In this document: one piece after another, positions 5,682-50,176 of the stretch
Layout: the number at the start of each line of letters is the position of its first letter
Numbering within the stretch: the stretch's first letter is position 1
Assembly: GCF_033344935.1 (NCBI RefSeq)
Contig: NZ_JAWPMM010000001.1
Span: 1,164,001-1,228,000 of the forward strand
From: Reichenbachiella sp.
Lineage (GTDB): Bacteria; Bacteroidota; Bacteroidia; Cytophagales; Cyclobacteriaceae
DNA length: 64,000 nucleotides
Direction of reading: 5' to 3'
The notes under the pieces: model-generated
What the model was told of the DNA's origin: nothing
The model's database searches: none
Seen by the model: only the letters and a program-made list of their open reading frames with translations
Program-made: the position numbers and the translations under genes

Positions 5682-6825
5682 ATTTTTAATTCTGGCTTTT
5701 ACCTGTTTGTTCTGCACGTCTACATGGGCGCAGGATGAAAGCATGGTCCTGAATGGCTATATGAAATACATGCATACGGTGATTCTGCCACCTGGTGATA
5801 GTAGTATGATCACAGACAATTTTCTCCACAATCGCTTGAATTATACCTGGTATTGGAATGATAATTTCACTTTTAAGGCCTCTATGAGGAATCGATTTTT
5901 CTGGGGAGAGCTGGTTCGTGATATACCGTTTGCGTATAGCAACCTGGGAGATGATCCGGGTTTTTTTGATATGAGTTTTGTATGGAGCAGCAGTTCTAGT
6001 ACAGTTCTTCATACCATTTTCGATCGAATGAATCTTATGTATCAAAAAAATGACCTGGAAGTGATCGCGGGAAGACAACGGGTGAATTGGGGAACGACAT
6101 TAATTTGGAACCCCAATGATATTTTTAATTCCTATTCCTTTTTTGATTTCGATTATGAAGAGCGGCCAGGCACGGATGCGGTTCAGGTGAACTATTACAC
6201 AAGCGCTGCGTCGTCGCTAAGTGTAGTTTATGCATTGGCAGACAGCTTAAAAGGAAGTACGCTGGCGGCCAAATATAAGTTCAACACACATACCTACGAT
6301 ATTCAATTTATGGCTGGTTACCAAAAGGAATTCTTTGTGGCAGGTGGCGGTTGGGCTGGAGACATCAAGGGAGCAGGCTTTAGAGGTGAGGGTACTTATT
6401 TCATTCCTATGAATGAAGCGGCTGGAGAGACCCAGTTTGTAGGTTCTATGGAGCTTGATTATACTTTTACCAATGGATTGTATTTTCAAACGGCCTATTT
6501 GTTTAATTCCAGAGGCTTGAATGCAAAATCAGGGGATTATGCGGCATTTTACCTGGACCGTAGTTTAAGTGCGCAGACTTTGAGTCCGGCTATGCATAAT
6601 TTGTTTTTTCAGATTTCCGGGGCACTTTCTCCCATATTAAACACGGCACTAGCGACCATGCTTAATCCTAAAGATGGCTCGCTCTTTATTGGACCCAATG
6701 TGACATGGTCCGTGGTTGAAAATTTTGATTTTCTTGTCGCCGCGCAGCTTTTTAGAGGGGATCCTATGACGCTTTACGGTGACGGGGGTTCCATGTTTTT
6801 CGGAAGATTTAAGTATAGCTTTTAG
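5668..6825 (+). CDS. Outer-membrane beta-barrel protein of the Lol-like operon
   Basis: A 385-residue protein with a signal peptide (cleavage near STWAQ, residue 22) and long alternating aromatic strands through to a C-terminal FGRFKYSF, the Phe-terminated last strand typical of outer-membrane barrels. The motif GRQRVNWGTTLIWNPNDIF near residue 130 recalls DUF1302-like porin-shaped proteins. I cannot assign a substrate. The start codon lies inside the ATPase gene (14-base overlap), so the barrel is translated as part of the transporter operon. The likely role is an outer-membrane acceptor, or exit site to the cell surface, for whatever the LolA-like protein carries. That role is an inference from gene order. 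Confidence 0.75.
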   Translation: MKRSKFLILAFTCLFCTSTWAQDESMVLNGYMKYMHTVILPPGDSSMITDNFLHNRLNYTWYWNDNFTFKASMRNRFFWGELVRDIPFAYSNLGDDPGFFDMSFVWSSSSSTVLHTIFDRMNLMYQKNDLEVIAGRQRVNWGTTLIWNPNDIFNSYSFFDFDYEERPGTDAVQVNYYTSAASSLSVVYALADSLKGSTLAAKYKFNTHTYDIQFMAGYQKEFFVAGGGWAGDIKGAGFRGEGTYFIPMNEAAGETQFVGSMELDYTFTNGLYFQTAYLFNSRGLNAKSGDYAAFYLDRSLSAQTLSPAMHNLFFQISGALSPILNTALATMLNPKDGSLFIGPNVTWSVVENFDFLVAAQLFRGDPMTLYGDGGSMFFGRFKYSF

Positions 6826-6905
6826 GCAAATGGGTCTTACAAAAGATTAAAAAACACTCTCAATCCTGCCGAATTACATACTTTATACTTTTACTAAGAT
6901 TTAAT

Positions 6906-6935
6906 TTTCAATCTCAACCAAAAAGGAGATTGAAA
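6906..6935 (+). promoter_or_regulatory. Hairpin masking ribosome binding site and start codon
   Basis: TTTCAATCTC (6906-6915) and GAGATTGAAA (6926-6935) are perfect 10-base inverted repeats around a 10-base loop. The right arm contains most of an AAAGGAGAT Shine-Dalgarno sequence and ends on the A of the ATG at 6935. The folded mRNA would hide both the ribosome site and the start codon. A clear Shine-Dalgarno is itself unusual in this window. No folding energy was calculated. Confidence 0.45.
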
Positions 6936-7480
6936 TGAAAAAAGTTATAGCACTTGGCTTGTGTGCTTTTGCCATGCTTGAAATGGCCTTTAGTCAGAGC
7001 GAAAAAATTAATAATGGTTATAATCTAGAGAGCTATTGTAATCTTCCTGATTGCAAGTATTTCAAATTCAATAATAATATCGGATTCCCTCAAGGAAAGT
7101 TGACCGATTGGGAAATGCTGCACGCGGAGATTGCTGTTAAGAACACAGGAAGTTATTTGCTCACTGGAGACATGGATATCAAGAAAGAGGAGATGGGGGT
7201 AAGGCTCACACTTGATATAGAGTTCTTCAATGCTGGCGATGACCTAATCCATACGGCACAAACAACGCTTCTGGAATATTATTCTGAACCAAATTATGCT
7301 GAACCCATAGTGGTGAAAGGAGAAATCCCTCAGCATGTTATTGAACAAATGGCGTACCTCAACTTTCTTGTAGTTGAAAGCGAGACAGTGCCGTACTACG
7401 AATTAGCCACCAATTGCTATGGCCCTTGCAATAACTATCAGTTGAATGCGAGTATTAAGGCCTTCAAAAAGTCGAAGTAA
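6935..7480 (+). CDS. Secreted protein of unknown function
   Basis: A 181-residue protein with a signal peptide (residues 1-20, cleavage near AFSQS). The mature part has two short cysteine pairs, CNLPDC near residue 36 and CYGPC near 162, which could form disulfides closing a compact beta domain. The middle alternates hydrophobic and charged residues, like a beta sandwich (AEIAVKNTGSYLLTGDMDIKK). I do not recognise the family. The gene stands alone after the Lol-like operon and is convergent with the metalloprotease gene, with 5 bases between stops. A hairpin covering its ribosome site suggests regulated translation. Confidence 0.6.
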   Translation: MKKVIALGLCAFAMLEMAFSQSEKINNGYNLESYCNLPDCKYFKFNNNIGFPQGKLTDWEMLHAEIAVKNTGSYLLTGDMDIKKEEMGVRLTLDIEFFNAGDDLIHTAQTTLLEYYSEPNYAEPIVVKGEIPQHVIEQMAYLNFLVVESETVPYYELATNCYGPCNNYQLNASIKAFKKSK

Positions 7481-44506: not shown

Positions 44507-44585
44507 AAACTCTCTTATAGTATAATTCATTGTTGAAATAGTTATATTTACATAGCCAGCGGCAGTGTATTTAAAGAAAGGAACA

Positions 44586-46007
44586 ATGAAGCAACCTCCA
44601 AAATTTACTCTGCGTTGGAGCATCTATGTCTTATGCTCAACGCTTATATTTCAATCATGTATATTAGATAATACAGATGACCCACCAGATGATGATGGTG
44701 ACGGTATCGAAAACGCTGTGGATATATGCCCTGATGTGGCCAATGCAGATCAGGCAGATGAAGATGGTGACGGTATCGGAGATGCCTGCGAAACTGATAC
44801 AGATGAAGATGGTGTCATAGATGACTTGGACAATTGTCCTACTATGGCCAATGCTGATCAGGCGGATGCAAACAATGACGGAATCGGTGATGTTTGTGAA
44901 GGAGATGGTGATGAGGATGGAATTCAGGATTATTTAGACAATTGTCCCGAGATTGCCAACCCTGAGCAGTCTGACTTTGATGGAGATGGTATCGGCGATT
45001 CCTGTGATGATACTACGGTAGCTGAGGACAAAACACACATACAATCAGCCTTGGATGGCACATTCAATTGTATTAGAAATTTGAAGAATGGCGATGCCAT
45101 GGGTGTAGTATTAGATGATATGGTTGGTCTCAGCAATGGAATAACACCGGATGAGGTCTGGATGGATGCTGTATTGGAAAACCTAGGGTCTATTATAGAT
45201 ACAGGAGAAGAAGATGAATCTTTCCGTTTGGTCATGGCTGATATTGGTGGTGTGTTTGAATTCAATAAATCGGATAGTAGTTGGACGGAGACCAGCGCTT
45301 CTAATTCTAAAATCGAATTAAAATTTCCTACCGTAGAAGGAGGAAGCAATAATGCTATCCTAAAATTGGACAACTACACAGATAAGGCATTTACTACTGA
45401 CGATAGTACCTATTATTTACCTACTTCAGCTGCTTTGAGCTTATCGGTTGATGGTACGGAAGTAATCGGTATAACCATAAACGAAGTGGTATATGGTTCA
45501 GGGAATGTGCCATTACCGACAAAAGTGGACTTAGAAATATTCCTAAAACCATCCAACTTCCATATTGTAATTGAGAGCCCGGTGGATACCAAATTTGCCT
45601 TAGACTTAGAAGTGTCCAATGAAGAAGGATGTGGGTATGGAATAGAAGTAGATGTAGAATTGGCGCATAATCAATATGATGATATTGATTTTGACACGGA
45701 TATTATATCCCTAACAGCTGGAATTCATTTAGAACATCTCTCTGTTGTCACCGCCTCGGATTTGGCTCCATTGTTTGGGCTTCAGGATCCTACTGATGCT
45801 CAAATCAATGAGTTAGTCGATCTGGATTTATTGATCAATAACTTCAAAGTGGCGGATGTTGAATATAATGGCACAGAGGATATACTGTATTTAATCTTCA
45901 AAGATGACTCTCAAGAAGATGCATTCAATTACTTCGAAAGCTTTTTTGATGATGTGCTGGGTCAAATCGAATATTACACCGGAGATTTGTTTGAAGAGGA
46001 AGTATAA
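44586..46007 (+). CDS. Lipoprotein with thrombospondin type-3 calcium repeats
   Basis: A 473-residue lipoprotein from the ATG at 44586. A GTG at 44565 is in frame but gives no better signal. The lipobox is LIFQSC. Residues 32-150 carry four thrombospondin type-3 repeats of the DxDxDGxxDxxDNCP type (DEDGDGIGDACETD, DGVIDDLDNCPTMANADQAD), each binding calcium through Asp side chains and pinned by Cys. The C-terminal 300 residues are a beta-rich region I cannot assign (GVFEFNKSDSSWTETSASNS). In Bacteroidota such proteins are often stalks on the outer surface. It is a single gene with its own terminator. Confidence 0.8.
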   Translation: MKQPPKFTLRWSIYVLCSTLIFQSCILDNTDDPPDDDGDGIENAVDICPDVANADQADEDGDGIGDACETDTDEDGVIDDLDNCPTMANADQADANNDGIGDVCEGDGDEDGIQDYLDNCPEIANPEQSDFDGDGIGDSCDDTTVAEDKTHIQSALDGTFNCIRNLKNGDAMGVVLDDMVGLSNGITPDEVWMDAVLENLGSIIDTGEEDESFRLVMADIGGVFEFNKSDSSWTETSASNSKIELKFPTVEGGSNNAILKLDNYTDKAFTTDDSTYYLPTSAALSLSVDGTEVIGITINEVVYGSGNVPLPTKVDLEIFLKPSNFHIVIESPVDTKFALDLEVSNEEGCGYGIEVDVELAHNQYDDIDFDTDIISLTAGIHLEHLSVVTASDLAPLFGLQDPTDAQINELVDLDLLINNFKVADVEYNGTEDILYLIFKDDSQEDAFNYFESFFDDVLGQIEYYTGDLFEEEV

Positions 46008-46014
46008 TGATAGT

Positions 46015-46056
46015 GAAGCTTGAGTTCGATAATTTATTGGGCTCAAGCTTTTTTTC
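46015..46056 (+). terminator. Intrinsic terminator of the TSP3 lipoprotein gene
   Basis: AAGCTTGAG (46016-46024) and CTCAAGCTT (46042-46050) are perfect inverted repeats followed by TTTTTTCTTT. It overlaps the 3' end of the convergent DUF4442 gene. Confidence 0.8.
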
Positions 46057-46540
46057 TTTGTTTGAAAGACCAGGTAAAATGAAAAACAGCGACCAAAGTA
46101 CCGTCCGCTGTTTTACCTTCAGTTCTAAGTTTAACAGTCTCTGATTCGCCCGACTGTATACAACGTTCGACCGCTTCAAAAACATGGTTTCCTTCGCTAC
46201 AAGTGAATTTCACTCTGGTAGTCGCTCGTTTGACGAATTCTCCTTCCATCCCCACAATAATGGATGCAATGCCAGGTTTGATTCCCTCAATGGCCATTAA
46301 TGCTATAGCGCCAGTAGAAAGTTCAGCTGCCATGGCCATCACGGCAAAGTACATCGATCGAAATGGATTTTGATTGAGCCAGCGGTGCGCTACTGTTGTA
46401 GTGGCATGCTCTTGTTCCAATTCAATCACTTTCATACCAGAAGCCCATCCTAATGGGATTTTGAAAAGTAAGAAGGTGCGAAATATCCATGCATTGAGCA
46501 TGCGTTTTCTATATCGGGCTTGAAGGGGAGATAATGTCAT
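46043..46540 (-). CDS. DUF4442 hot-dog fold protein (thioesterase-like)
   Basis: A 165-residue soluble protein of the DUF4442 family (PF14539), related to hot-dog acyl-CoA thioesterases. The hallmark region is HRWLNQNPFRSMYFAVMAMAAELSTGAIAL (residues 52-81), the long central helix with a possible catalytic Glu/Ser, then MEGEFVKRATTRVKFTC. No activity has been proved for this family to my knowledge. It lies on the minus strand between the TSP3 lipoprotein gene and the copper locus, and shares a 113-base upstream region with the latter. That region contains a CRP/FNR-like palindrome that could act on either gene. Confidence 0.8.
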   Translation of the reverse strand: MTLSPLQARYRKRMLNAWIFRTFLLFKIPLGWASGMKVIELEQEHATTTVAHRWLNQNPFRSMYFAVMAMAAELSTGAIALMAIEGIKPGIASIIVGMEGEFVKRATTRVKFTCSEGNHVFEAVERCIQSGESETVKLRTEGKTADGTLVAVFHFTWSFKQRKKA

Positions 46541-46605: not shown

Positions 46606-46621
46606 TATGACGCAGATCATA
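46606..46621. promoter_or_regulatory. CRP/FNR-type operator candidate upstream of the copper locus
   Basis: TATGA (46606-46610) and TCATA (46617-46621) are perfect inverted repeats with a 6-base spacer, the geometry of CRP/FNR family sites (E. coli CRP: TGTGA-N6-TCACA). The centre, 46613.5, lies about 41 bases before the transcription start predicted from the -7 box at 46642-46649, the usual place for a class II activator. Confidence 0.45.
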
Positions 46622-46641
46622 ATTCAATAGAGATACTTCTC

Positions 46642-46649
46642 TACATTTG
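46642..46649 (+). promoter_or_regulatory. -7 promoter element of the copper locus
   Basis: TACATTTG matches TAnnTTTG. It ends only 4 bases before the ATG at 46654, so transcription would begin at or just beside the start codon and the mRNA would have almost no leader. No TTG lies at -33, which fits a promoter that needs an activator. Confidence 0.45.
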
Positions 46650-46653
46650 CATC

Positions 46654-47028
46654 ATGCCATTGCGGTTAATCTCCATATTGCTCATTTCAGTCATGATGTA
46701 CAAGCCCATCTTGTGCACTTGGACAGTCGTGGATTTTGCTATGAACAGAGATTATATCGCTGCCTACCTTTGTGAAAATCAAAACCGACCTGAATTAGAA
46801 TGTCAGGGCAAGTGTTTTTTGATGACTAAACTAAAAAATCAGATGAATGATAGTCAGGAGCACAAGGCCAAACAGCTGACGCAACTGAGTAAAATCGAAC
46901 TGATGAATGTACATGAGGCAACCACTTTCGGTTTCTTCAATACTGATTTTGTCACGCTAAAAACACCTGAAAGCCCAGCGGTCATCGAAGGATACTTGGC
47001 TTCTATTTTTCACCCACCCATCGTTTGA
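46654..47028 (+). CDS. Small membrane-anchored protein with CxGKC motif (copper locus)
   Basis: A 124-residue protein with one N-terminal hydrophobic segment (residues 3-22), then VVDFAMNRDYIAAYLCENQN and the cluster ELECQGKCFLM, giving Cys40, Cys50, Cys54 and Met57. Similar small Bacteroidota proteins, named only hypothetical, share the pattern Y-DYI--LC-N---PE--C-GKC-L. Closely spaced Cys and Met outside the membrane suggest a metal site, most likely copper given the genes that follow. I know no experimental work on them. It opens a three-gene locus with a YtkA-like lipoprotein and an OprC-like receptor. Confidence 0.65.
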   Translation: MPLRLISILLISVMMYKPILCTWTVVDFAMNRDYIAAYLCENQNRPELECQGKCFLMTKLKNQMNDSQEHKAKQLTQLSKIELMNVHEATTFGFFNTDFVTLKTPESPAVIEGYLASIFHPPIV

Positions 47029-47184
47029 GGTTGTCTGATTAGATAGCCGAATACCCCTTTTAATATTCCCTGTTCATAGGGATAATCAAGAAGTTCTCTT
47101 TGTAATAGAGAATATCATTAACTATTTATTATTCAATAAGTGTAGTGGGATGAATTGTATCCACACTGCCCAATATTTCAAACG

Positions 47185-47991
47185 ATGAAAACATTACACA
47201 ATATATTTTTATTAGCCGTTTTGGTACTTGCTCAAGCCTGTTCTGATAACGATGAAGTTATGAATCCCGTAAGCAATATGATCGAAATCGCTTCGGTTGC
47301 AGTTCCAGATTCAGATTTCAAAGTGGTTATGTATATGGAAGAAGGAATGAGCCCAGAAGTAGGCTATAACGATTTCTCTTTAGGCCTTTATACCAATGCT
47401 GGAGAGTGGCTGAGCAATGCTCATTTGAGTATCACCCCGATGATGGACATGACGGAAATGAACATGATGCATAGTGCACCATTCGAAGCGGACGAACATG
47501 ATGCAAGCATGGACATGCTGCAAACATTCGCTACAGTATTTGTCATGCCGTCTACCGCAGGAAATTGGACGCTTGACGTAACCGTCATGGAAATGGACTC
47601 TGAGTTTCAGGGTGAGGTTTCTTTGCCATTGACTGTAACTGCCCCTGAACTAACCAGACTCAAGTCTGTAACCAGTGAAGAAACTAGCTATTTCATTACT
47701 ATGATTGACAATCCTGATTTTGCTGTAAACAGTAATGATATTGAGTTTACGATTCACAAACGCGAGTCGATGATGAGCTGGCCTGCAGTGGAGAATTTGA
47801 CTATAGAAATAGAACCAGAAATGCCAGCCATGGGTCATGGATCACCAAACAATGTGAATCCTACTCATCAAGGCAATGGACACTATAAAGGCACTGTCAA
47901 TTTTACTATGATGGGTGATTGGGTAATCAATGTGATTGTAAAGGATGGGGATACTATCATTCTTGAGGACGCATTTGATGTCGTATTGTGA
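47185..47991 (+). CDS. Met/His-rich YtkA-like lipoprotein (copper locus)
   Basis: A 268-residue lipoprotein from the ATG at 47185 (lipobox VLAQAC, Cys19). The frame opens at a TTG ten codons earlier, which would spoil the signal. It has two similar beta domains (about 33-152 and 153-268). The first contains MMDMTEMNMMHSAPFEADEH near residue 86, a stretch very rich in Met with His. The second has EPEMPAMGHGS near 211, then GHYKGTVNFTMMGDWVINV, as in YtkA/FixH-like domains. Met-rich stretches of this kind bind Cu(I) in other periplasmic proteins. It probably hands copper over between the receptor and inner-membrane proteins. That role is inferred. Confidence 0.7.
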   Translation: MKTLHNIFLLAVLVLAQACSDNDEVMNPVSNMIEIASVAVPDSDFKVVMYMEEGMSPEVGYNDFSLGLYTNAGEWLSNAHLSITPMMDMTEMNMMHSAPFEADEHDASMDMLQTFATVFVMPSTAGNWTLDVTVMEMDSEFQGEVSLPLTVTAPELTRLKSVTSEETSYFITMIDNPDFAVNSNDIEFTIHKRESMMSWPAVENLTIEIEPEMPAMGHGSPNNVNPTHQGNGHYKGTVNFTMMGDWVINVIVKDGDTIILEDAFDVVL

Positions 47992-48034
47992 ACAGTTTAA
48001 AGTTCCATTCAAGACTTTAGCTAAACAACTTTTG

Positions 48035-48113
48035 ATTGTCATTTCGACGAAGGAGAAATCTCATCACCTGTAGCAGATGAATTGGATTTCTCCCTACCGG
48101 TCGAAATGACAAT
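48035..48113. repeat. Palindromic repeat of the GTCATTTCG family
   Basis: ATTGTCATTTCGA (48035-48047) and TCGAAATGACAAT (48101-48113) are perfect 13-base inverted repeats. Inside, GGAGAAATC (48052-48060) pairs with GATTTCTCC (48085-48093). The words GTCATTTCG and GAGAAATCT also occur in copies A-D at 17.6-18.6 kb. It sits between the YtkA-like gene and the receptor gene, inside the locus, with no gene of its own. Confidence 0.75.
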
Positions 48114-48130
48114 TAGGAAAAAAATAAAAA

Positions 48131-50176
48131 ATGAACAGTAAACCGATTCAGTTCCTTGTTGTGATATGTGCATTGGCTTTACAGTCAAATGCTCAAATCT
48201 CTCACCAGGCTTGGCTCGACTCCATCCAAAGCGATTCCTATATAGGAATGGAAGTATGGCTGGATGATCTGGAACTGTCTGAGGCCAGACATATCGACGA
48301 ATCAGCAGCCTATGGTTTTTACAAAAACAATCCGCTCAATAGTACGGAAGAAGTGCTGTCTCGTCTACCAGGGATGAGCATGATCCGCCGGGGCAATTAC
48401 GCTTGGGAACCTACCATTAATGGATTGAGTAGCGGACAAGTGAATGTGGCTATAGACGGCATGCGGATGTTTGGCGCTTGTACGGACAAGATGGACCCGG
48501 TGTCTTCTTATGTGGAGCCTAACAATCTGGAAAGTATTGTAATTGAAAAAGGCGGAGCGGGAAGTGCACATGGTAGCACTGTTGGTGGTGCTGTAGATTT
48601 CAAGCTCAAAAGACCGAGATTCAACCAAGCATGGAGTGGCAGTCTAAATTCCAGATATGAAACCGTGTCTAATGGAATGAGTCAATCGGCTAGTCTGAGT
48701 TATGGTACTGAAAAGCTGGCGATCAGAATGAATGGCAGTTACCGAAACTATCAAGACTATACCGATGGAGAGGGTGACGAAGTGTATCATTCTGGATATA
48801 AGAAGCTGAATTATTCCCTGAGCGGCGCCTATCGATTGAAGGGAAATAACCTGATCAATTTTGATTTTCTAATCGATGACGCTCGAGACATTGGATACCC
48901 CGGTTTACCCATGGATGTAGCATTCGCTAAAGCGAAAATTGGAGCGGTGAGTTATACGATGTTCGAACCATTGAACTGGTTGACAGAAGTGGAGTTTAAG
49001 GCCTACGCTAATACAGTCGATCACCTGATGGACGATTCCAAACGAATGGATATACCTGTCCGTATGGACATGCCTGGCGAAACTAAAACTTATGGAGGGT
49101 ATGCACAGGCCAGTGCGGTTCGCGGGAATCACATCATACAAGCGAAGCTCGATGGCTATGCCACGAATGCCTATGCCGAAATGACCATGTTCATCCCGAA
49201 CGAACGAGATATGTTTATGTTGACTTGGCCAGATGTAGATCGAAAGGATGTGGGGTTATTTGTCTCCGACCAATGGCAGACCACTGAAAAATTGACTACC
49301 GAGATAAGTATGAGAGGAGAGCAAGCTTTTACTCAAATGAACAGCGAAATGGGCAAAGGCCAATTTGCAGTGTTTGGCTATGGTGAAGAGGATTTTCAAG
49401 TCAATCATTTTGTGCTCAATACGGGTGTTTCTTTGAATTATAGTTGGTCCTCAGCATTTTCTACGAAAATAGGTGGTAGCTATGGTGAGCGATTGCCATC
49501 GGTCTCTGAGATGTATGGGTTCTACTTGTACAACAATTTTGATGGCTATGACTATATAGGCAATCCGGAGATTAAAAAAGAAAGTTCTTATCAACTGACG
49601 GGCTCAATCAACTACCAGCCGGTAGAAAAACTCGAAATCAATGTAAGTGGCTTTCATTATTGGTTCAATGACTACATCATTGGGTATGTAGATGAATCTT
49701 TGGATGCCATGACTATAGGAGCCAAGGGGGTGAAGGTGTATGAAAATGTAGATGGGGTGACTTTCTCTGGCTTTGATGCTCAAGTGTTGTATCAGGCTTC
49801 CAAACATCTGCAATTGTTGTATGCGGTGAAAGCTACCTATGCGACTGATGGTGAAGGCACGCCTTTGCCACTGATACCACCGCTCAAAAACAATTTGACG
49901 GTAGTGGGACAAATCAAAGGGTTCAAACTTCAGGCAGATGGAGAGTGGTCTATGGCGCAAAATCAGATTAGTGAAAATACCGGAGAGATAGCCACGCCGG
50001 CCTATCAGCTTATCCACCTGAGAGCCAGCAAGGATTGGGATATGGAAAAGGTAAAACTCGGCCTTTCATTAGGGGTAGAGAATGTGTTGGACGAAAGCTA
50101 CAGAGAGCATCTGGACTGGGGTGGGGTATTGCGACCTGGTAGAAATTTTTATGCCTCGCTAAAGGTTGGGTTTTAA
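48131..50176 (+). CDS. TonB-dependent receptor, OprC/NosA-like copper importer
   Basis: A 681-residue outer-membrane receptor: signal peptide to SNAQ (residue 22), plug domain (about 60-165) and a barrel ending in YASLKVGF. The plug reads DGMRMFGACTDKMDPVSSYV, giving the CxxxM motif Cys117/Met121. In the barrel, VDHLMDD gives the HxM motif His298/Met300. In Pseudomonas OprC the copper site is Cys143-x3-Met147 with His323-x-Met325, a spacing of 180 from Cys to His. Here it is 181. Extra Met-rich loops (MDIPVRMDMP, MTMFIPNERDMFML) support copper. NosA, the related receptor, supplies copper for nitrous-oxide reductase. Its TonB box was not clearly identified. It ends the locus with a strong terminator. 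Confidence 0.85.
   Translation: MNSKPIQFLVVICALALQSNAQISHQAWLDSIQSDSYIGMEVWLDDLELSEARHIDESAAYGFYKNNPLNSTEEVLSRLPGMSMIRRGNYAWEPTINGLSSGQVNVAIDGMRMFGACTDKMDPVSSYVEPNNLESIVIEKGGAGSAHGSTVGGAVDFKLKRPRFNQAWSGSLNSRYETVSNGMSQSASLSYGTEKLAIRMNGSYRNYQDYTDGEGDEVYHSGYKKLNYSLSGAYRLKGNNLINFDFLIDDARDIGYPGLPMDVAFAKAKIGAVSYTMFEPLNWLTEVEFKAYANTVDHLMDDSKRMDIPVRMDMPGETKTYGGYAQASAVRGNHIIQAKLDGYATNAYAEMTMFIPNERDMFMLTWPDVDRKDVGLFVSDQWQTTEKLTTEISMRGEQAFTQMNSEMGKGQFAVFGYGEEDFQVNHFVLNTGVSLNYSWSSAFSTKIGGSYGERLPSVSEMYGFYLYNNFDGYDYIGNPEIKKESSYQLTGSINYQPVEKLEINVSGFHYWFNDYIIGYVDESLDAMTIGAKGVKVYENVDGVTFSGFDAQVLYQASKHLQLLYAVKATYATDGEGTPLPLIPPLKNNLTVVGQIKGFKLQADGEWSMAQNQISENTGEIATPAYQLIHLRASKDWDMEKVKLGLSLGVENVLDESYREHLDWGGVLRPGRNFYASLKVGF

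Follow-up and report, generated by a model that had tools for sequence, protein, structure and literature searches.

Organization of the locus

The locus reported here resides in a stretch of 64,000 nucleotides (nt) from Reichenbachiella sp. (assembly GCF_033344935.1, contig NZ_JAWPMM010000001.1, positions 1,164,001 to 1,228,000), which at its full length is referred to as the window. It comprises three genes on one strand, encoding a small protein with a CxGKC motif, a Met/His-rich lipoprotein with a YtkA domain and a TonB-dependent receptor resembling OprC/NosA of Pseudomonas, preceded by a Crp/Fnr-type inverted repeat and a putative -7 element (Table 1). A sequence-only reading of the window had joined the three gene products into one copper route, in which the receptor hands copper to a periplasmic lipoprotein and this in turn to the small protein as receiver in the inner membrane. 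The receptor with its lipoprotein partner in one locus was retained from this route, while the small protein as a member of the relay was not. Instead, the most fitting reading of the small gene is that of a leader open reading frame (ORF) which senses copper, a Bacteroidota form of the CruR/CutF kind, and the whole locus, as judged from its sequence, probably constitutes a copper-import operon with a built-in nascent-chain copper sensor.

Gene order was surveyed in 148 genomes of the order (order sample) and in 296 genomes of the phylum (phylum sample). Of the genomes in the order sample, 90 contain the small gene, 14 the receptor (E<=1e-40) and 11 the lipoprotein, whereby leader, lipoprotein and receptor are adjacent on one strand and in one order in all 11 lipoprotein-bearing genomes, the genome of the window included; in the 3 remaining receptor genomes the small gene adjoins the receptor and no lipoprotein match was found. 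The phylum sample yielded receptor profile matches in 77 genomes at 82 places (two fragments of a single receptor in genome G361 being counted as one) and lipoprotein profile matches in 37 genomes at 42 places, with the lipoprotein gene immediately upstream of a receptor at 37 of these, and the small gene is present in at least 118 of the 296 genomes. At least 14 of the 82 receptors have both genes upstream and at least 25 the small gene only; among the small-gene matches listed, 23 have the lipoprotein only and 20 have neither. Conserved adjacency of the three families in Bacteroidota, which the sequence-only reading had named as a check, is thus borne out by both samples.

Table 1. Features of the copper locus in the window (first eight rows) and of two further loci of the same genome
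Feature	Position	Strand	Remarks
Crp/Fnr-type inverted repeat TATGA-N6-TCATA	46606..46621	+	
Putative -7 element, TACATTTG	46642..46649	+	match to TAnnTTTG
Small CxGKC leader ORF, 124 residues, C-terminus FHPPIV	46654..47028	+	proposed copper-sensing arrest peptide
Proposed copper-sensing segment, codons 39-57, LCENQNRPELECQGKCFLM	46768..46824	+	C40, C50, G52, C54 invariant in 35/35
Proposed ribosome-arrest tail LASIFHPPIV, codons 115-124	46996..47025	+	P121, P122 invariant in 35/35
Intergenic region, 156 nt, proposed control region	47029..47184	+	
Met/His-rich YtkA-domain lipoprotein, 268 residues	47185..47991	+	PF13115
OprC/NosA-like TonB-dependent receptor, 681 residues	48131..50176	+	ligands C117, M121, H298, M300
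Second leader-receptor-PepSY_TM locus	L170 2787-7141; C1 ~4314.8-4319.1 kb		own genome
nos cluster: cytochrome c, fasciclin-domain protein, NosZ, NosL, NosD, ABC ATPase, permease	L171 6556-13451; C1 ~3686.6-3693.5 kb		own genome

The receptor

Cys117, Met121, His298 and Met300 of the receptor are found where the sequence-only reading had placed them, with 181 residues from Cys to His, and a scripted motif count returned a single CxxxM and a single HxM. OprC was identified as top sequence match in the PDB (phmmer, E 4e-20), and read along this alignment the four residues coincide with C143, M147, H323 and M325 of OprC, i.e., with the copper ligands of its CxxxM-HxM site (PMC8610252; this and the other articles cited are drawn on in excerpts, to which all statements about them refer). 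All four ligands are invariant in 14/14 aligned relatives (one truncated by a contig end). With a receptor model derived from these 14 sequences (mean predicted local distance difference test (pLDDT) score 82), a fold search of the PDB returned OprC chains at ranks 1 to 28, followed by PhuR and ZnuD, the identity to OprC over the fold match amounting to 18-20%. Among the NCBIfam models, TIGR01778 fits the window receptor best, and it matches 14/14 relatives, yet the receptor scores 163.1 bits against a curated cut-off of 472.45 bits, hence it is OprC-like and falls outside the curated family. This low score would fit a receptor which imports chelated copper or another metal (cf. CrtA/BfrG for chelated Cu(II), ZnuD for zinc) in place of free copper ions, as would the sub-threshold matches of haem-receptor and ZnuD models to the receptor and the fact that CrtA represents a separate copper receptor family under CruR (PMC12914433); the invariance of all four OprC ligands and the rank of the OprC chains as best fold matches render such a substrate unlikely.

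These findings support an OprC/NosA-like copper receptor whose partner, encoded in the same locus, is a conserved Met/His-rich lipoprotein, and copper import by receptor and lipoprotein is likely. With the Pseudomonas proteins the receptor shares the CxxxM-HxM ligands at aligned positions, the fold and, as for NosA, a link to NosZ, but it differs from them in being paired with a YtkA lipoprotein and a leader that is not of the DUF2946 type. Within the Bacteroidota, an OprC-like receptor with CxxxM-HxM was reported for Bizionia argentinensis, its locus tag being near those of CcoG and NosL, whereas neither a leader nor a lipoprotein is described alongside it in the excerpt of that article (PMC11213822). 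In locus L042 (6516-8780) an in-frame stop interrupts the receptor ORF, the upstream leader ORF being intact.

The lipoprotein

With 24 Met and 8 His among its 268 residues and a match to PF13115 at residues 165-250 (48.4 bits, cut-off 25.9), the lipoprotein is indeed Met/His-rich and YtkA-like, as had been read from its sequence. Residues C19, M87, M89, H96, M121, M197, M213, M216, H218 and M242, among others, are invariant in 11/11 lipoproteins, and the lipoprotein of Reichenbachiella faecimaris is 73% identical to that of the window. Its model is beta-rich (mean pLDDT 74) and retrieved mostly generic immunoglobulin-like domains from the PDB, with Helicobacter pylori CrdA (9ll2) at rank 35, while the PDB sequence search gave a best E of only 0.22, for an H. 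pylori copper resistance protein; the likeness to CrdA thus amounts to a weak sequence and fold match and nothing more. YtkA-domain proteins of Bacillus subtilis act in copper delivery and in the copper loading of oxidases (PMC13344008), whereby CtaK and the C-terminus of YcnJ share with the window lipoprotein the YtkA domain and the copper context, CtaK being a lipoprotein as well. Compared to known YtkA proteins, the window lipoprotein adds a Met-rich N-terminal part and has an outer-membrane receptor as partner.

Instead of residing in the periplasm, the lipoprotein might be exposed on the cell surface and serve the receptor as a copper-catching lid or ferry, an idea which is plausible though slightly less likely than not, and which concerns the lipoprotein alone and is compatible with the copper-import operon proposed above. 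The residues following the lipid cysteine (S-D-N-D-E in the window, S-D-D-N-D in R. faecimaris) resemble SDDDD and SDDFE, which were published as signals for surface export (PMC5080379). Yet acidic residues at positions +2 to +6 average 1.49 in the family (43 of 44 lipoproteins, i.e., those with a lipobox by the rule used) and 1.19 in 74 other lipoproteins of the loci, which is no clear signal, and YtkA relatives elsewhere serve oxidase assembly (PMC13344008).

The small CxGKC gene and its tail

The small protein carries Cys40, Cys50, Cys54 and Met57, as the sequence-only reading stated, and in addition Cys21 within its hydrophobic N-terminus. When 35 members were aligned, only six columns were found to be invariant, namely C40, C50, G52, C54, P121 and P122, the latter two being located next to the C-terminus. 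Such a diproline (PP) lies 1-8 residues from the stop in 39/39 members of the first set; of the other ORFs in these loci, 9/461 have PP among their final 12 residues. In a larger set it lies no more than 8 residues from the stop in 59/61 members, the distance being exactly 2 in 29 of them, while the background among ORFs of 90-204 residues amounts to 20/261 or, with the exchanged leaders described below excluded, to 9/250. Many members had first been detected by matches which stop short of the tail. The residue preceding PP across the 61 members is H (26), R (15), Q, P, K or another. Comparison with the R. faecimaris protein (locus L126) revealed that residues 1-62 keep 60 and residues 63-84 keep 19/22 positions, that residues 85-114 keep 9/30 and that 9 of the last 10 are kept again. 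The drifting segment 85-114 between conserved ends suggests that sensor and tail, both conserved, are joined by a free linker. At E<=1 the small ORF of the window has no match in Pfam, and such matches as occur among the 35 members are few, single, weak and unrelated.

Genes behind the leaders and exchanged sensors

Loci were fetched for inspection, chosen by hand and hence not a random sample. Within these, an ORF with PP tail precedes 42/56 receptors (32/43 with and 10/13 without lipoprotein), a count in which L132 was wrongly entered as lacking lipoprotein and leader, and in which the interrupted receptor of L042 was entered as leaderless despite the leader upstream. L132 in fact possesses a family leader ending FHPPRTETTA, located about 2.7 kb before the lipoprotein match in a G+C-rich stretch. 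Eleven of the 42 leaders lie outside the family model, being Cys/His-rich and having the same tail.

The exchange of sensors is best documented by those 23 lipoprotein-receptor places of the phylum sample that lack a small gene among the matches listed, 19 of which were fetched. In 8/19, another Cys/His-rich ORF with the same PP tail occupies the leader's place (L133, L136, L137, L138, L142, L143, L144 and L146, often with CTCHH). These replacement ORFs comprise 129-158 residues, terminate with RPP or KPP and 2 or 3 further residues and do not match the leader family profile; three further exchanged sensors (L160, L162 and L163) are located upstream of receptors without lipoprotein. Of the other fetched loci, L135 has a nos-type gene order and a family member that lacks the terminal PP, its genome G350 showing no nosZ; three lie in nos-type clusters without leader ORF, a call made by Pfam for L139, by gene order and a nosZ at 2.2 kb for L141 and by gene order alone for L140, whose genome G370 shows no nosZ; five are without such an ORF (L128, L130, L131, L134 and L145), L129 is truncated by the contig start, and the last is L132 with the distant family leader described above.

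Leaders are located before copper or TonB-receptor genes of several kinds, separated from them by a gap. Scanning 26 first downstream proteins, i.e., 25 without a match to the lipoprotein or the receptor profile and one receptor of L064 added by hand, identified 15 of the MbnP family and 3 TonB receptors; 3 of the 25 sit behind second leaders in L152, L153 and L155. In these three loci leader, lipoprotein and receptor are followed by the second leader and further genes in one cluster. The genome of the window likewise contains a second, divergent leader-like ORF of 129 residues, ending ASPPPKHT, which is followed by genes for a TonB receptor and a PepSY_TM protein (Table 1). A same-strand gene precedes the leader in 30/39 members, the upstream gene of the window being divergent.

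Some neighbours of the leaders are recorded here in their own right. In L052, the leader is preceded by a di-haem peroxidase gene, and a protein of about 300 residues (6262-7170), the mature part of which starts with CDICGC or a similar Cys motif and which has no Pfam match, is encoded beside leaders and MbnP-type genes; resembling starts occur in L049, L057, L059 and L066. In L058, a PepSY_TM gene follows the receptor-sized gene behind the leader.

The conserved gene order (11/11 genomes), the Cys/Met-rich segment and the hydrophobic stretch at the N-terminus would also suit the relay outlined at the beginning, with the small protein receiving copper in the inner membrane. Such a relay is nevertheless improbable, as the terminal PP is kept while the linker drifts, ORFs with the same tail substitute for the family member in 8/19 fetched loci, a receptor-lipoprotein pair lies inside the nos cluster L139 without such an ORF and members occur upstream of MbnP and other receptor genes. 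A copper chaperone function was hence rejected on PP conservation, ORF swapping and the other gene contexts, and the placement of the small protein at the inner-membrane end of a handover chain finds no support in conservation pattern, terminal PP, genomic position or swapping. Conservation pattern, terminal PP, swapping and the position before unrelated copper genes argue for a cis-acting, copper-responsive leader ORF.

Known counterparts of the leader

In CruR from Bordetella a Cys pair senses copper, the C-terminal RAPP is required for expression of the downstream receptor and, with copper, Rho terminates transcription (PMC9426467), and ribosome arrest at RAPP was demonstrated in a cell-free system (PMC12992588). 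The gap between cruR and bfrG comprises 162 nt and the gene order is cruR-bfrG-bp2921 (PMC9426467), which is also that of the second leader locus in the genome of the window. Like CruR, the leader is a small exported-type ORF with a Cys pair, a near-terminal PP, a long gap behind it and a TonB receptor in the operon, but it possesses CxxxC and one more Cys, carries F[H/R]PP where CruR has RAPP, does not match DUF2946 and is joined to a receptor of another family. CutF-like proteins, known from Rhodobacter, were collected by rules asking for fewer than 150 residues, a CxxxC, PP no more than 15 residues from the end and a same-strand neighbour within 1,000 nt, along with a predicted Sec signal peptide and a hit in an iterated CutF search, giving a list of 5,334, with a Bacteroidota share of 19%, or 40% after normalising (PMC9973294). 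By its 124 residues, C50-C54, PP 2 from the end and neighbour at 156 nt the window leader conforms to the first four of these rules, and the published Bacteroidota members may well include the leader family. CutF differs in that it acts on a multicopper oxidase and with the opposite sign, and its PP motif alone was not shown in the excerpt to be a strong arrest sequence (PMC9973294).

As its layout is that of the CruR and CutF leader ORFs, the small gene is read as encoding a nascent-chain copper sensor which would control lipoprotein and receptor, and it would form a variant within a known class of copper-responsive leader ORFs. The statement of the sequence-only reading that the two smaller proteins have no described function is out of date in view of the YtkA proteins (PMC13344008), CruR (PMC9426467) and CutF (PMC9973294). 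The tail of the leader family and the three-gene locus were not found described in the literature searched, which is no proof of absence.

The promoter and the control region

The inverted repeat TATGA-N6-TCATA is unique within the window, and in L126 its half-sites and the -7 element are kept, while the spacer differs. The -7 element of Bacteroidota has the consensus TAnnTTTG, to which TACATTTG, located 34 nt downstream of TGA and conserved in L126, conforms. The promoter region is common to the leader and a divergent DUF4442 (thioesterase-like) gene at 46043-46540 (-), beyond which a putative lipoprotein with thrombospondin type 3 repeats is encoded (44565-46007, +). The 13 nearest loci, consisting of the window, ten other loci of the order, R. 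faecimaris and one metagenome bin, were compared to control genes, whereby TGA-N6-TCA was found within 150 nt upstream of the leader in 11/13 versus 36/570. With TAnnTTTG at 33-37 or 53-57 nt from the site the figures are 10/13 and 0/570, the spacing windows having been picked after the data were seen and the species being related; in the window, both strands scanned, this pair occurs at one place. The two spacings lie about two helix turns apart, as known for class II and class I activator sites. Outside the nearest loci, the pair is found in 0/13 distant loci, 1/35 other leaders and 0/11 exchanged leaders, and a Crp/Fnr-type promoter as a family-wide feature was ruled out, its scope being the near relatives only. 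Upstream of the nos operon of the own genome, TGACCGTTGTCA precedes the first start codon by 66 nt and is 35 nt away from TACTTTTA, which is one mismatch from the -7 element; HcpR sites (TTGAC-N4-GTCAA) have been reported for nitrogen-oxide genes (PMC1274295).

For the region behind the leader, a simple conserved stem-loop was rejected, as the gap is poorly conserved between the window and L126. The Rho-type C-over-G excess near the leader stop has a median of 0.154 in the 13 nearest loci compared to 0.103 in controls, and amounts to 0.179 for all 61 leaders compared to 0.103 in 674 controls, differences which are inflated by the relatedness of the loci. The gap also bears on the sign of regulation. 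CxxxC and terminal PP are among the rules for CutF, and CutF and CruR are on record with opposite signs (PMC9973294), which would allow for copper binding to the nascent leader to promote downstream expression in a locus serving copper excess. The downstream genes being an importer and its partner, the gap of 156 nt being CruR-like (162 nt) and no conserved stem-loop having been found over the next start, this sign is regarded as very unlikely.

Candidate copper clients

A copper enzyme which may be supplied by the locus is the nitrous oxide (N2O) reductase NosZ, for which the own genome encodes a clear match (920 bits, cut-off 625) together with nosL, nosD and ABC transporter genes (Table 1). 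In the order sample, nosZ is present in 7/14 receptor genomes versus 16/134 others, in the phylum sample in 44/77 versus 55/219 and, when receptor and lipoprotein are both required, in 19/35 versus 80/261. The receptor lies within 20 kb of nosZ for 12/47 receptors in nosZ-bearing genomes, and in L139 receptor and lipoprotein are found inside the nos cluster. NosZ as the sole client was rejected, as 7/11 full-locus genomes of the order sample do not possess nosZ, and other copper enzymes must hence also be served; OprC, too, was found without denitrification (PMC8610252).

Proposed mechanism

For stalling, copper binding, the sign of regulation and transport, we infer the following course. Initially, an activator of the Crp/Fnr family, as suggested by its site, would switch on the promoter, low oxygen or nitrogen oxides being the usual signals of this family. 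The leader ORF would then be translated, whereby its N-terminus is exported or inserted into the membrane. When copper is scarce, the ribosome would stall two codons short of the stop, at the terminal FHPP, and thereby the downstream region would stay open. When copper is plentiful, the CxGKC segment, together with Cys40, would bind copper and the stall would be relieved, which may turn lipoprotein and receptor off, either through a Rho-type end of transcription or because the next start site becomes hidden. The receptor, once formed, would move ionic copper over the outer membrane via its CxxxM-HxM site like OprC, with the lipoprotein as its partner either capturing copper at the surface or passing it through the periplasm to enzymes such as N2O reductase.

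Several findings weigh against a leader-controlled copper importer of this kind. The tail differs from the known arrest sequences: RAPP or RGPP ends 0/61 members, the window having FHPP, and 2/61 leaders have PP at 17-18 residues from the end; the sensor contains CxxxC and not CXXC, and DUF2946 (PF11162) was matched by none of the 35 members (E<=1) and is found nowhere in the own genome. Among the receptors of the fetched loci, 14/56 were counted without a PP-tailed leader, and nosZ is present in 4/11 full-locus genomes of the order sample versus 19/137 others (p 0.07), leaving 7/11 without it. TGA-N6-TCA is restricted, with 1/13 distant lipoprotein loci, 7/35 other leaders and 0/11 exchanged leaders, and its pairing with the -7 element suffers from the late choice of spacings and the relatedness of the species stated above. 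Finally, the 156-nt gap of the window folds hairpins and is poorly conserved compared to L126, and the C-over-G excess near the window leader stop is ordinary (63rd percentile of 565 controls). The narrower scope of the promoter leaves confidence in the leader unchanged, because its reading was not built on the promoter.

Implications

A survey from 2025 reported RAPP/RGPP leaders of TonB-related genes across Gram-negative bacteria and counted Bacteroidota with the groups in which copper-related genes have no such leaders (PMC12992588). The rule by which such peptides were searched, RAPP/RGPP, does not cover the tail of the leader family, and F[H/R]PP would explain this lack. Beyond the single locus, we tentatively propose, regarding the matter as nearly evenly balanced, that Bacteroidota place modular metal-sensing leaders before copper-import genes, in which one shared arrest module, [F/L][H/R]PPxx-stop, is combined with exchangeable Cys/His sensors lacking detectable sequence similarity. 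A Crp/Fnr-type promoter would be added to this in the window and in its near relatives, so that the importer may be made only when a respiratory signal coincides with copper hunger. The proximity of receptor and nosZ (12/47) ties copper import to the removal of N2O, a greenhouse gas, and what was presumed to be a metallochaperone becomes a testable candidate for a nascent-chain copper sensor which would be widespread in Bacteroidota.

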